From the IMG/VR virus record IMGVR_UViG_3300006030_000069, positions 1-30,754 of that record: DNA of 30,754 bases. One strand, 5' to 3'. How positions within the stretch are numbered: position 1 is the stretch's first letter; every line of letters begins with the position of its first letter. A program made the position numbers and the translations under genes. Source of the stretch: a virus. Shown piece by piece: positions 4,294 to 12,029 of the stretch. The notes below the pieces were generated by a model. It saw nothing but the letters and a program-made list of their open reading frames with translations. It was not told the origin of the DNA and ran no database searches.

Positions 4294-4307
4294 CCGGAAA
4301 CCTCGGT
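4294..4307 (+). promoter_or_regulatory. Start-associated element (copy 1)
   Basis: The 14-mer CCGGAAACCTCGGT lies one base before the ATG of the plus-strand neck gene at 4309. The identical 14-mer precedes the portal gene on the other strand (12016-12029), and close variants precede other late genes. Whether it acts as promoter, ribosome-binding aid or protein-binding site cannot be told from sequence. It also lies in the 50-bp gap shared with the divergent tape-measure gene. Confidence 0.6.
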
Positions 4308-4308
4308 C

Positions 4309-4698
4309 ATGGCTTCCGCTCTCTCCGCTTTATCCAACGCCACCGCCACTTTTCAGGTGGCGGGCACGGGCGTGGTCACTGACCCGGAAACAGGGAACGT
4401 GTCGCCCGCGGGAGCCACGGTCACAGTGGCGTTGTTCCTGAGCGCCGCACAGACGCGGGTGCTGCGGTACCCAGGAGTTGATACCACGGAGACCGTCTAC
4501 GAAGGCTATGCCTTGGACGCGCTAGACCCTCGTATTGAGATCGGCGTTACAGGTGTCCTGACGTTTGCGGGGGAGCCGACGCTTGATTGCGAAGTGCGCT
4601 CTGTTCGTCTGCCTTACGGGAAGACGGGGCTGCTCGGCGAGACCCTCAACAGCGTGCTTGGCGAGAAGGTGCAGCTGGTGAGCAGAGGCCAAGCGTGA
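4309..4698 (+). CDS. Putative head-tail joining (neck) protein
   Basis: This 129-aa protein (ATG at 4309; an upstream in-frame TTG at 4288 is less likely) is small, Val/Thr-rich and probably all beta, with the segment TETVYEGYALDALDPRIEIG in the middle and no membrane segment. Size and sequence style fit head-closure or stopper proteins of siphoviral necks. It overlaps the next gene by GTGA, so the pair forms one unit. Both genes are on the strand opposite to the surrounding structural genes, although neck genes normally lie in the same operon between connector and tail tube. Function is inferred from context. Confidence 0.55.
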   Translation: MASALSALSNATATFQVAGTGVVTDPETGNVSPAGATVTVALFLSAAQTRVLRYPGVDTTETVYEGYALDALDPRIEIGVTGVLTFAGEPTLDCEVRSVRLPYGKTGLLGETLNSVLGEKVQLVSRGQA

Positions 4699-5183
4699 CG
4701 GTCGCCATCAAGCAGTGGAACGCCGCAAGGTTGCTAGCGAAAGTTGCAACCACGCTTGAGAAGTCCGGTGCCGTCTACAGCGAGACGGCAGTGCTACAGA
4801 TGTCCAACCCCATATGGGACTGGGACTGGGCGACGCTGCGCTATGAAAGCCTGTTGATGGGGGGTACGCGTGAGCCCGGTCGTCTTGGCGTAATCGTTGG
4901 TAAGGGGCCGCGGGACATCGTAGATACAGGGCGCCTGCTGGATTCGATGACGAAACCACTCGTGATCCGAGAGCGAGGCAAAGCGTCTATGGTCATTGCG
5001 TGGACAGCTCCTTATGCCGAGCGGGTGCGGACCGGTGGGTATTACGGTTCCTACATCAACCCGCGTGGCCAAGAAGTCACTGTCGGCTACAGGCCGGGCC
5101 GCGATTGGATCGCCGCCACCTTCAAAGCCAGGCCGGCAGAGCGGGTGTTTGCCGACATCTGGCGCAGTTTCAAGGGCACATAA
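4695..5183 (+). CDS. Putative tail completion / neck protein, HK97 gp10-like
   Basis: The GTG at 4695 overlaps the preceding stop as GTGA and gives a 162-aa protein; a longer in-frame extension upstream would run through the previous gene and is unlikely. The core has DIVDTGRLLDSM (about residues 76-87) followed by WTAPYAERVRTGG (about 104-116). This arrangement, a TGRL-type element followed by a YA..v..G element, is characteristic of HK97 gp10-type neck proteins that connect head and tail. The C-terminus has RDWIAATF and ends basic. Together with the preceding gene it forms a plus-strand pair convergent with the tail tube gene. Confidence 0.65.
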   Translation: MTVAIKQWNAARLLAKVATTLEKSGAVYSETAVLQMSNPIWDWDWATLRYESLLMGGTREPGRLGVIVGKGPRDIVDTGRLLDSMTKPLVIRERGKASMVIAWTAPYAERVRTGGYYGSYINPRGQEVTVGYRPGRDWIAATFKARPAERVFADIWRSFKGT

Positions 5184-5217
5184 AAAGGCCAGCCCCCACG
5201 CTGGGAAGGGGCTAGCC
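5182..5217 (-). terminator. Rho-independent terminator after tail tube gene
   Basis: On the minus strand GGCTAGCCCC and GGGGCTGGCC form a hairpin with one mismatch, followed directly by TTTTT (5182-5186). It lies between the convergent ends of the neck pair and the tail tube gene and would stop transcripts of the latter. The plus-strand pair has no T run here. Confidence 0.8.
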
Positions 5218-5245
5218 ATCAGAGTCCCGAGTCCCTTGGCTTAGA

Positions 5246-10245: not shown

Positions 10246-10433
10246 AGAGCCTCCCGCGCCTCCTCGTAGCCGGGAATCCCGGCCACGCATCTGGCGCGTT
10301 CGGCGTCGCGATCACGCACAACGGGGGCGTATGGCTCCATGAGCTGGTGGTGCAGCTCTTCGGCGGCCGCGGCTACCTCAGGGTCGCTGAGGTACTTCTC
10401 GCGGACCTCGCTCCAGGTGGGGTGGTGCGTCAT
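10242..10433 (-). CDS. Small hypothetical protein between portal and head morphogenesis genes
   Basis: The 63-aa acidic, helical protein (ATG at 10433, three bases after the portal stop) begins MTHHPTWSEVREKYLSDPEV and has no recognised domain. Its stop overlaps the start of the MuF-like gene. Spacing strongly suggests it is a genuine operon member. The VREKYLSDPEV segment loosely resembles the N-terminal helix of some XRE antitoxins, but no HTH follows, so no such role is claimed. Confidence 0.7.
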   Translation of the reverse strand: MTHHPTWSEVREKYLSDPEVAAAAEELHHQLMEPYAPVVRDRDAERARCVAGIPGYEEAREAL

Positions 10434-10436
10434 GGC

Positions 10437-12008
10437 TCAGTTGGCATTGCGCCCAGGGCGGAGGGGGGTCTCCAGCGTCTGGCTGCTCAGTGACTCGCCC
10501 TGGCCGGCGCTGGGCGCTTGGAACGCCATGTCGGGACCGGCGGCGTTCAGGCGGTCCATCGCCTGTTGCTCCGCAAGGCGTTCGGCGGTGGCGCTCACCT
10601 CCGCGTCGATGTCCATCGTGGCGGGTAACACCTCGCCGTCCTGCAAAATGCGCAGGAGCGTCTCCTGGCTGATCGCGCCCTGCATGTAGAGCTGGAGCAT
10701 CGCCGTGATCTCGTTGCCGCTCAGCAGGCGGCTGTCGTAGTCGCGGGGGATGTGGACCGTGGGTGGCTCGATGCCCACGTACTCAGCCGCCAGCTCAAAC
10801 AGCTGCGTGATGCTGCGCTCCAAGTCGCCGCTGATGACGGCCATGATCGAGTCGCTATCGACGCGATCAAGGCGGCGGGCCTCGGCGGCGGCGTTAGTGA
10901 GGTTGGCTTGGGTAAGGGTGTTGATGCCGAGGCGGCCGATCTGGTCCTCCAGCTCTTTGAGGCACTTGAGCTGGGAGTCGAAGGCTTCGGACGTGGGTTG
11001 CACCCATTCGGCGCCGCCATCTGGGGGCAAAAGCAGCGCTGTGTTGACGCTGATGCCGATGGGTGAGTCGGAGTCGGGGTCGAAGCCGCGTAGCACCAGC
11101 ATCGGGTTGGCGCCGACGTGGATGCTGTGGTGGAAGTCGCACCAGCGCTGCGCGTAGGCGATGCACAGATACGCCACTTCCTCCAGCGGGGGCGTGGACA
11201 TCAAGTTGCCGGTGCGCTGGGCGTAGGTCGTCACCAGTGGGATGCGGCTCAAGCTGGTGCGGCCGCTGTCCACTAGCTCCCACTGGGGGCCCTGGCCGTA
11301 GGTGGTGGTCGTGGGACTGCGCCATAGCTCGTAGCCGCCCGGTGTCATCACGCGGATCTGGTCTTGTAGCTCCTCGCCGTAGGCGCCTTTGCTGGTGACC
11401 ACGCGCTCGCGGATGCGTACCTGCGTCAACTCCGAGCTGGTGCTGTCGGTGGCTGTGCGCCAACCCAGGATCTGGGGCGGTGACACCGGCACCAAGTACG
11501 GCTTGCGGCGGAGGCGGCGCTCCTCGGCGAGGGTGCGGGGGGTGCCGTCGGCGGCGTAATCGACGATGGTGCTGCTGTGGCCGTACAGCAGGGCGGTGAT
11601 CAGCTGGCGGCGGGCGTATTCGTTCAGGGTGGTGCCGTCGCCGCAGACGTCGAGGATCCACTGCTCCCAGTAGGGGTCGCCCTCAATGTGGATGCCTTTG
11701 CGCAGGATGATGCCGGCGGCTTGGCTGGCGAGGCGGTTCAGGAACGGGGGCAGCGTGGCGTGGAATATCCGGCGCTCGTAGCTCTCCTTGGCTTCCGAGG
11801 GTTCGCGGGGGACGATGCTCTCGGCGCGGGCGCGGAGGGCGCGGGTGCCGCCGACGCAAATGTCGATCGGCTCCCAATGCACCGCCATGTTCAAGACGGC
11901 GCTGCTAAGAACGCTGGGGTCGTCGTTGTTGCCCTGCTGCAACAGACCCGGATACGGCGAAATGACGCGGGTGGGGTAGGTGCTATCGGCCACGCGGCGC
12001 CTAAACAC
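10437..12008 (-). CDS. Portal protein
   Basis: The 523-aa product (GTG at 12008) has the size of a phage portal subunit and the pattern I associate with the DUF4055 portal group. An N-terminal region contains YERRIFHATLPPFLNRL and AAGIILRKG (about 77-105). A central beta-rich part follows, with VPVSPPQILGWR (about 173-184). The C-terminal helical region contains KCLKELEDQIGRLGINTLTQ (about 349-368) and EARRLDRVDSDSIMAVISGD (about 376-395), then a Gln/Ser-rich tail. It would form the dodecameric ring that TerL docks on. The gene lies between terL and the MuF-like gene, as is usual, with a full start-associated element before it. Confidence 0.8.
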   Translation of the reverse strand: MFRRRVADSTYPTRVISPYPGLLQQGNNDDPSVLSSAVLNMAVHWEPIDICVGGTRALRARAESIVPREPSEAKESYERRIFHATLPPFLNRLASQAAGIILRKGIHIEGDPYWEQWILDVCGDGTTLNEYARRQLITALLYGHSSTIVDYAADGTPRTLAEERRLRRKPYLVPVSPPQILGWRTATDSTSSELTQVRIRERVVTSKGAYGEELQDQIRVMTPGGYELWRSPTTTTYGQGPQWELVDSGRTSLSRIPLVTTYAQRTGNLMSTPPLEEVAYLCIAYAQRWCDFHHSIHVGANPMLVLRGFDPDSDSPIGISVNTALLLPPDGGAEWVQPTSEAFDSQLKCLKELEDQIGRLGINTLTQANLTNAAAEARRLDRVDSDSIMAVISGDLERSITQLFELAAEYVGIEPPTVHIPRDYDSRLLSGNEITAMLQLYMQGAISQETLLRILQDGEVLPATMDIDAEVSATAERLAEQQAMDRLNAAGPDMAFQAPSAGQGESLSSQTLETPLRPGRNAN

Positions 12009-12012
12009 GGGT

Positions 12013-12029
12013 GTTACCGAGGTTTCCGG
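12013..12029 (-). promoter_or_regulatory. Start-associated element (copy 8)
   Basis: The minus strand reads CCGGAAACCTCGGTAAC immediately before the portal GTG (four bases between). Its first 14 bases are identical to the copy at 4294-4307 on the opposite strand. It continues into ACACCCG, matching the tail-tube copy. Confidence 0.65.

Follow-up and report, generated by a model that had tools for sequence, protein, structure and literature searches.

What is the short sequence that recurs before the late genes of this virus, and what reads it? In the window (the whole stretch of 30,754 nucleotides from IMG/VR record IMGVR_UViG_3300006030_000069), a sequence-only reading had listed eight related elements close to late-gene starts and had offered a late promoter, a translation element or a repressor site as their function. 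That observation holds in substance and is partly confirmed. Its interpretation is partly supported, with the late promoter strongly favoured over the other two. The element can be written GG[AC]AAN[CT]T[AC]GG and stands, oriented with the gene, before most structural genes in a group of viruses that infect freshwater cyanobacteria.

Three sites in the window are exact matches to GGAAACCTCGG: before the portal gene (12017..12027, minus strand; also supported by orthologous portal starts), the connector gene (ATG 6914; 6930..6940, minus strand) and the neck gene (ATG 4309; 4296..4306, plus strand; also supported by the ATG spacing). The sequence CCGGAAACCTCGG is present in three exact copies, at 4294 (+), 6930 (-) and 12017 (-). 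The 14-mer reported at the neck and portal sites on opposite strands is indeed there and sits inside a 16-nt perfect inverted match. The scaffold gene (GTG 9316) is preceded by GGCAACCTCGG (9337..9347, minus strand), a matrix match at a place where element-less relatives have a -10 box. Both the matrix and the core pattern matched before the HTH-like gene (ATG 7136; GGCAACTTCGG, 7105..7115, plus strand), the tail tube gene (ATG 5722; GGAAACCTAGC, 5746..5756, minus strand) and the tape-measure gene (GTG 4258; GGCAATCTCGC, 4282..4292, minus strand). The tape-measure site, missed in the original list, forms a back-to-back pair with that of the neck gene. The site of the 43-aa gene (ATG 7076), GGAAAGATCGG (7086..7096, minus strand), is a one-base variant with A in place of C/T; it scores 6.9, below the others, and the orthologue in L012 has GGAAATCTCGG. 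The string CGGTAAC(A)CCCG, previously thought to be shared among sites, is not conserved at tail-tube starts. The portal start had been placed at 12008; orthologues start at GTG 11993, which is probably the start here as well, and the portal transcript is predicted to begin near 12014. A lone match in the early region, GGCAAGCTCGG before a 44-aa ORF (26840..26850, plus strand), was found by pattern and may be due to chance.

The 10-mer core has 11 copies in the window, 8 of them upstream of a same-strand start, while the reversed control has a single copy and none upstream. Using a matrix trained on other contigs, 10 window sites scored at least 13, and 8 of these 10 were upstream of a start. 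A de novo motif search in the window's own upstream regions also recovered the element (log-likelihood 56 vs 30 for shuffled sequences). A loose 13-mer search allowing up to 3 mismatches gave no enrichment in the window (14 found against a mean of 11.4 in shuffles), so the loose consensus was rejected and only the refined motif is enriched there.

Across 17 contigs of the lineage, which are partly redundant, the core was found at 173 same-strand sites upstream of starts and at 39 sites elsewhere, compared with 1 and 36 for the reversed pattern in the same contigs. An equal density inside genes, which would have spoken against the element, was thus not seen, and related phages carry the element at the orthologous starts. 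Only 2 sites lay upstream of a gene on the wrong strand alone. Based on the gene maps of G001, G027 and G008, the element is confined almost wholly to the structural and tail/lysis module; the exceptions are an early match in G001, a match upstream of the sigma gene in G008 and another at the end of G027. Gene starts that overlap previous genes have no element, as had been noted. Back-to-back pairs number 30 in the 17 contigs, are mostly 2-8 bp apart and are near-palindromic. Outside the training sample, 14 of the 15 matches in G069 were upstream of genes (control, 0 of 2). Of the 9 matches in G042, just 3 preceded a called gene, and a GGTAA variant is also used there at orthologous starts.

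The distance from the element to the start codon is informative. Counting from the first G as position 0, the start codon falls at position 13-14 in 19 of 111 deduplicated sites, at 25-37 in 82 and at 42-70 in 9; positions 15-24 hold a single site, which is that of the mis-set portal start, and the start of the 43-aa gene with its variant element falls in a spacing class that is empty elsewhere. From this spacing, the transcript is predicted to begin some 13 bases beyond the first G; start codons lie either at the predicted transcript start (leaderless) or 12-24 bases past it. The ATG of the neck gene at 4309 falls exactly on the predicted transcript start, which places it in the leaderless class. 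Among the 20 neck orthologues listed, the ATG is at position 13 in 17 and at 14 in one, and two are false matches; the N-terminus is kept, with synonymous changes.

In the flank profile of the same 111 sites, information is restricted to positions -1 to 15, and no -35 box is seen. A3 and T7 are each present at about 99% of these sites, where A3 was set by the training pattern, T7 was free to vary and a score threshold was applied; they lie four bases apart, as do A-11 and T-7 of the sigma-70 -10 region. G0, A3 and T7 correspond to G-14, A-11 and T-7 in sigma-70 numbering, bases that are read base-specifically in sigma-70 open complexes according to the account in PMC4593229. G-14, A-11, T-7 and G-5 are fixed, as are G-13 and A-10, and T-12 is nearly excluded (about 2% of sites). 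The element is not a TATAAT-like hexamer with T-12, and is best read as a sigma-70 "-10" region of altered specificity without a -35 box. Position 5 is variable and its possible partner G1 fixed, so a hairpin in the core, considered by eye, was dropped.

The scaffold gene of relatives points the same way. The element is present in 18 of 28 rows; its T-7 precedes the start by 21-24 nt, and these rows have no TANNNT within range. Another 9 have TANNNT, with the box ending 22-26 nt before the start and no element; one row could be assigned to neither box. The hexamers in the element-less relatives are TAAACT or TAGACT at the spacing of the scaffold site. The scaffold element thus occupies the place of the relatives' standard -10 box.

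All the late-gene sites belong to this family, the 43-aa gene's as a variant, apart from that of the capsid gene. Before the latter (ATG 8560) lies a different element, CACGGTAACCCCGC (8572..8585, minus strand), which was rejected as a family member: it has no T-7 and is conserved in L015, L028 and L030, which lack the late element. A stem predicted there contains one pair with a two-sided change, too weak to claim. Terminator-like hairpins were detected after the capsid gene (7445..7469, minus strand) and the tail-tube gene (5189..5204, minus strand) in a terminator scan that gave 7 sites in 4200-13900 against 6.3 expected in shuffles. The hairpin after the capsid gene hints, weakly, that the genes downstream would need their own promoter.

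A complete sigma-70 gene of the same virus is located just beyond the window, at 44072-45187 of G001, a record that matches the window with 100% identity across 29823 bases. In both proteins scanned, all four sigma regions (1.2, 2, 3 and 4) exceeded the Pfam cut-offs. Among near-group records of at least 25 kb, 8 of 11 had region 2, against 0 of 5 distant-group records; most records are fragments. Most long element-bearing relatives have the sigma gene, and relatives that share the capsid lineage but have no element lack it. The presence of element and sigma gene is discordant with the capsid: G025, whose capsid protein is 75% identical, has no sigma gene and 0 upstream elements, while G069, at 30% capsid identity, has the sigma gene and 14 upstream elements. 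The sigma clade that accompanies the element has a local support of only 0.82. A comparison of residues separating the sigmas of element-bearing phages yielded one column only and nothing convincing.

Based on these results, we consider it very probable that the element is a late promoter read by the host RNA polymerase carrying the phage-encoded RpoD-like sigma. The host core enzyme with this sigma would recognise GG at -14 and -13, the hexamer [AC]AA(C/T)(C/T)T from -12 to -7 and [AC]GG from -6 to -4 as the core promoter of late genes, with no -35 box, and RNA would start 6-7 bases past T-7. A separate copy would serve every late gene or small operon, and divergent genes would have two copies back to back. 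As T-12 is nearly excluded, the main sigma of the host should use these sites poorly, and the late genes would therefore wait for the phage sigma. Transcription start at the element, reading by the phage sigma and timing are what we infer from the motif, its orientation and spacing, its module restriction and conservation, its location where relatives have a standard -10 box and the presence of the sigma gene. The virus could in this way activate its late genes without relying on the start signals that the host normally uses.

The nearest competing explanation is a late promoter read by a main or alternative host sigma. Cyanobacterial hosts possess several sigma factors, and the 26.9 kb fragment G030 carries 12 upstream elements with no sigma gene within it. 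However, element-less relatives have TANNNT at the same place and no sigma gene in long records, and T-12 is used at so few sites that this explanation seems unlikely. A binding site for a phage activator or repressor overlapping the promoters could account for the near-palindromes formed by the back-to-back pairs and for the HTH-like gene within the late module. But that gene is also found in the element-less G025, G036 and G038, single sites are asymmetric and gene-oriented (173 vs 2), and the element takes the place of the -10 hexamer; a regulator site is thus quite improbable.

It is harder still to see the element acting at the RNA level, as a 5' leader signal for translation or mRNA processing similar to start-associated sequences. 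Closeness to starts and absence from overlapping gene starts would fit, whereas two spacing classes set far apart with an empty gap between them, and a promoter box in the same place in relatives, would not; divergent pairs with gaps of about 50 nt would also be left with no visible promoter. We give very little credence to this possibility. Hardly any remains for a promoter read by a T7-type, single-subunit RNA polymerase of the phage: the element is compact, contiguous and adjoins the predicted start, but PF00940 was unmatched in 31 records (several of them fragments) in a search that finds the polymerase of T7 itself. ECF sigma promoters have a GGAAC-type -35 and a conserved -10 about 16 bases downstream. 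An ECF reading was rejected, as positions 17-30 carry almost no information.

Among known systems, the late promoter proposed here can be compared with those of T4, described in PMC2988020 as short -10-only elements read by the host core with the sigma-family protein gp55. In both cases a -10-only element precedes late genes and the phage encodes a sigma-family protein. T4 uses an 8-bp TATA box, a gp55 without a domain 4 equivalent, a split sigma and a sliding clamp (PMC2988020), in contrast to [AC]AAYYT with flanking GG and a sigma with regions 1.2, 2, 3 and 4 here. G-14, A-11, T-7 and a G-rich discriminator are shared with extended -10 sigma-70 promoters, in which the extended -10 is able to replace the -35 (PMC4593229); unlike these, T-15 and T-12 are unused here, and G-13, A-10 and G-5 are fixed. 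The cluster K start-associated sequence GGGATAGGAGCCC is reported in PMC3203893 as a fixed 13-mer directly before starts and thought to be translational. The likeness to it suggested earlier is positional, both being repeated, oriented and placed before many gene starts, and does not extend to sequence, to the two spacing classes or to the place of the -10 box. At bidirectional bacterial promoters, outlined in PMC12825309, divergent starts likewise arise from promoter DNA that is almost symmetrical; there one -10 hexamer is shared, whereas here two whole elements are set back to back.

It is fairly likely that the element and the sigma have evolved into a pair orthogonal to the host, in which A/C takes the place of T-12 and recognition has moved to G-14 G-13, A-10 and G-5. 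Such a pair would control a late regulon of small units, including conserved leaderless genes and back-to-back bidirectional promoters, and would have been lost or gained with the sigma gene independently of capsid lineage. If the late-promoter reading is right, the cognate promoter of a cyanosiphovirus sigma is given and late-gene starts are fixed, leaderless mRNAs of virion genes are predicted, and a compact sigma/promoter pair becomes available on which the host sigma should work poorly. The late-transcription switch of these phages becomes directly testable.

Phage-encoded RpoD-like sigmas are also known from P-SS2, S-CBS1, S-CBS3, S-LBS1 and KBS-S-2A. Reports of sigma genes in siphoviruses of cyanobacteria go back years, but no late promoter is assigned to them in the literature searched, which covered these five phages. 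Unlike in the viruses studied here, the element is not upstream of genes in the four of these sigma-encoding genomes that were scanned (KBS-S-2A, S-CBS1, S-CBS3 and S-LBS1), so the element cannot be predicted from the presence of a sigma gene alone. In de novo searches of KBS-S-2A, S-CBS1, S-CBS3, G046, G057 and G061, no clear motif rose well above the shuffled controls. S-LBS1 repeats GATCCATAGCCTG before three late genes, and this is perhaps its own version of the late box. Other cyanosiphovirus sigmas, such as that of S-LBS1, may each have their own late box and form a natural specificity series.

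In the virus fragment (30,754 bases), late genes are preceded by an oriented motif, GG[AC]AAN[CT]T[AC]GG, which is read here as a putative -10-type late promoter. The sequence-only reading had claimed eight start-associated sites; those before the scaffold, HTH-like, tail tube, connector, portal and neck genes and the 43-aa gene are real, and the exact recurrence was found as a 13-mer at three places in the window. The site before the capsid gene belongs to another element, and the tape-measure gene, which had been missed, is likewise preceded by the late element. A search of the window with a loose consensus gave no enrichment. 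Using a matrix built from other contigs, 10 window sites scoring at least 13 were found, eight of them before a start; because the training contigs contain regions homologous to the window, de novo motif finding on the window alone and comparisons across contigs weigh more. Without the motif as input, the element was recovered de novo in records G030, G008, G009 and G027 and, in a separate run, in the window, G001, G069 and G008, and it was not recovered in G025 and G036.

Scanning with the capsid protein gave 373 related loci, of which 80 were retained. In the near group (capsid identity of about 69–100%), the element was found at the orthologous starts of the tape measure, neck, tail tube, connector, HTH-like, scaffold and portal genes. 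At these starts it was absent in the near-group loci L015 and L028–L030 and in more distant capsid relatives. Summed over 35 records (G000–G034), GGMAANCTMGG had 109 matches and its reversed form six. Across 17 contigs examined over their whole length (the window plus 16 other records, with some of the 17 near-identical), the 10-mer core occurred 173 times on the same strand within 60 bases upstream of a start called by a simple purpose-written gene caller and 39 times elsewhere, versus 1 and 36 for the reversed control.

Based on 111 deduplicated sites (of 174), the consensus was cGG[AC]AA(C)(C/T)T[AC]GGnnA[A/T]A; its near-100% columns arise partly by construction, since the sites were gathered by a seed pattern (T7 and G9 left free) and a score threshold. 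The profile from -51 to +61 held little information outside this consensus. Aligned as a -10 region, the element places G0 at -14, A3 at -11 and T7 at -7, bases that, according to PMC4593229, sigma contacts specifically in open complexes; T at -12 occurred in about 2% of sites. Start codons lay 13–14 bases from the first G at 19 sites, 25–37 at 82 and 42–70 at nine. The only site at 15–24 was that of the window portal gene, whose orthologues start 15 bases beyond its assigned start, and the 43-aa gene is a spacing exception, starting at 20. Among 20 listed rows for neck orthologues, ATG was at 13 in 17 and at 14 in one, the other two being false matches. With the predicted transcript start at 13, leaders would be absent or 12–24 bases long.

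At the scaffold start, the late element occupies the position of the standard -10 box of relatives. In 18 of 28 distinct rows, T-7 of the element lay 21–24 bases (mostly 23) before the start, with no TANNNT in range. Nine rows, including L015, L028, L029 and L030, had no element, and TAAACT, TAGACT, TAAAGT or TAGAAT ended 22–26 bases before the start. The remaining row (L053) had a mis-set start and was assigned to neither class.

Eight of the 23 near-group records gave a match to sigma-70 region 2, all eight being among the 11 records of at least 25 kb; the window fragment, G025 and G030, which make up the rest of these 11, gave none, nor did any of the five distant-group records. The sigma proteins of G001 and G033 had regions 1.2, 2, 3 and 4 above Pfam cut-offs, and the best solved relative was a SigA chain, 8h3v. 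A search that does recover the single-subunit RNA polymerase of T7 detected no such enzyme in 31 records. In a tree of sigma proteins, those from element-bearing phages clustered together (local support 0.82), and scanned sigma-bearing phages outside this group (KBS-S-2A, S-CBS1, S-CBS3, S-LBS1, G046, G057 and G061) had no element upstream of genes. The wider pattern GGMAANYTHGG gave 20 matches versus 3 controls in 13 records with an element-group sigma (or a sigma sharing at least 76% identity with one of that group), and 13 versus 15, summed, in the other 22. Element presence tracks the sigma, against capsid relationship: G025 (capsid 75%) had no sigma and no upstream elements, while G069 (capsid 30%) had a sigma and 14 of 15 element matches upstream.

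Record G001 (48,362 bases) is the same virus as the window and extends it, since the two are 100% identical across 29,823 bases; its sigma gene is at 44072–45187 (-). The window's right end (29664–30752) also matches G001 45521–46609 at 99.9%, which suggests either circular permutation of the genome or a jump in the assembly within repeated sequence. In the permuted case, the gene for the sigma would begin some 330 bases beyond this end, in line with the early genes that run rightward, a join made uncertain by the repeats in this region. ORFs 29559–29906 and 30083–30427 share nearly the same beginning and are apparently paralogous small genes.

SPO1 uses a phage sigma factor for its late genes. 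T4 gp55 is described as another such factor (PMC2988020), and cyanosiphovirus sigma genes have been reported (PMC2784084, PMC6157547, PMC3751600). In the open-licence literature searched, no late promoters assigned to cyanosiphovirus sigmas were found. We propose that a phage RpoD-like sigma with the host polymerase core reads the late element. TANNNT-type boxes occur in relatives at terL (window 12382–13734 (-)) and the gene at 5759–6313 (-) and would suit host sigma. Host polymerase would then be steered to the late elements by the phage sigma. In these relatives, TACACT/TACCCT-type boxes stand in place of the late element despite the location of both genes in the structural module. Thirty divergent element pairs, most 2–8 bases apart, were found in 17 contigs between neck/tape-measure and HTH-like/connector genes, in gaps of about 50–60 bases with nothing else conserved. 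Polymerase on one element of a pair would probably exclude the other.

The window is attributed to a cyanobacterial siphovirus-like phage on the strength of 43% identity between its terminase and that of cyanophage KBS-S-2A, and of 35% identity between its capsid protein and that of cyanophage S-2L; the host would be a freshwater picocyanobacterium. Locus L004 (contig JAURGS010000261.1), of the same phage lineage, was binned in a Rhodoferax MAG, probably a binning error.

The capsid-upstream element (window 8572–8585, (-), between the scaffold stop and the capsid start) is strongly conserved in L005–L041, reading CACGGTAAACCCCGC in relatives, and is also kept in phages without the late element; CACGG and an AA/CCC core within it are nearly invariant in 20 sequences. 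In S-LBS1, copies of GATCCATAGCCTG lie upstream of three late genes (at 2520, 8102 and 19788); this repeat may be the late promoter for the sigma that S-LBS1 itself encodes. In S-2L, CCGTGCTTTAATAG, which resembles an extended -10 promoter, is repeated before several leftward genes near 2000–6500. Inside the tape-measure gene (window 2400–3450 (-)), short recurring units around GGTGAGCC(T/C/A)GG were seen by eye, as if the protein had internal repeats.
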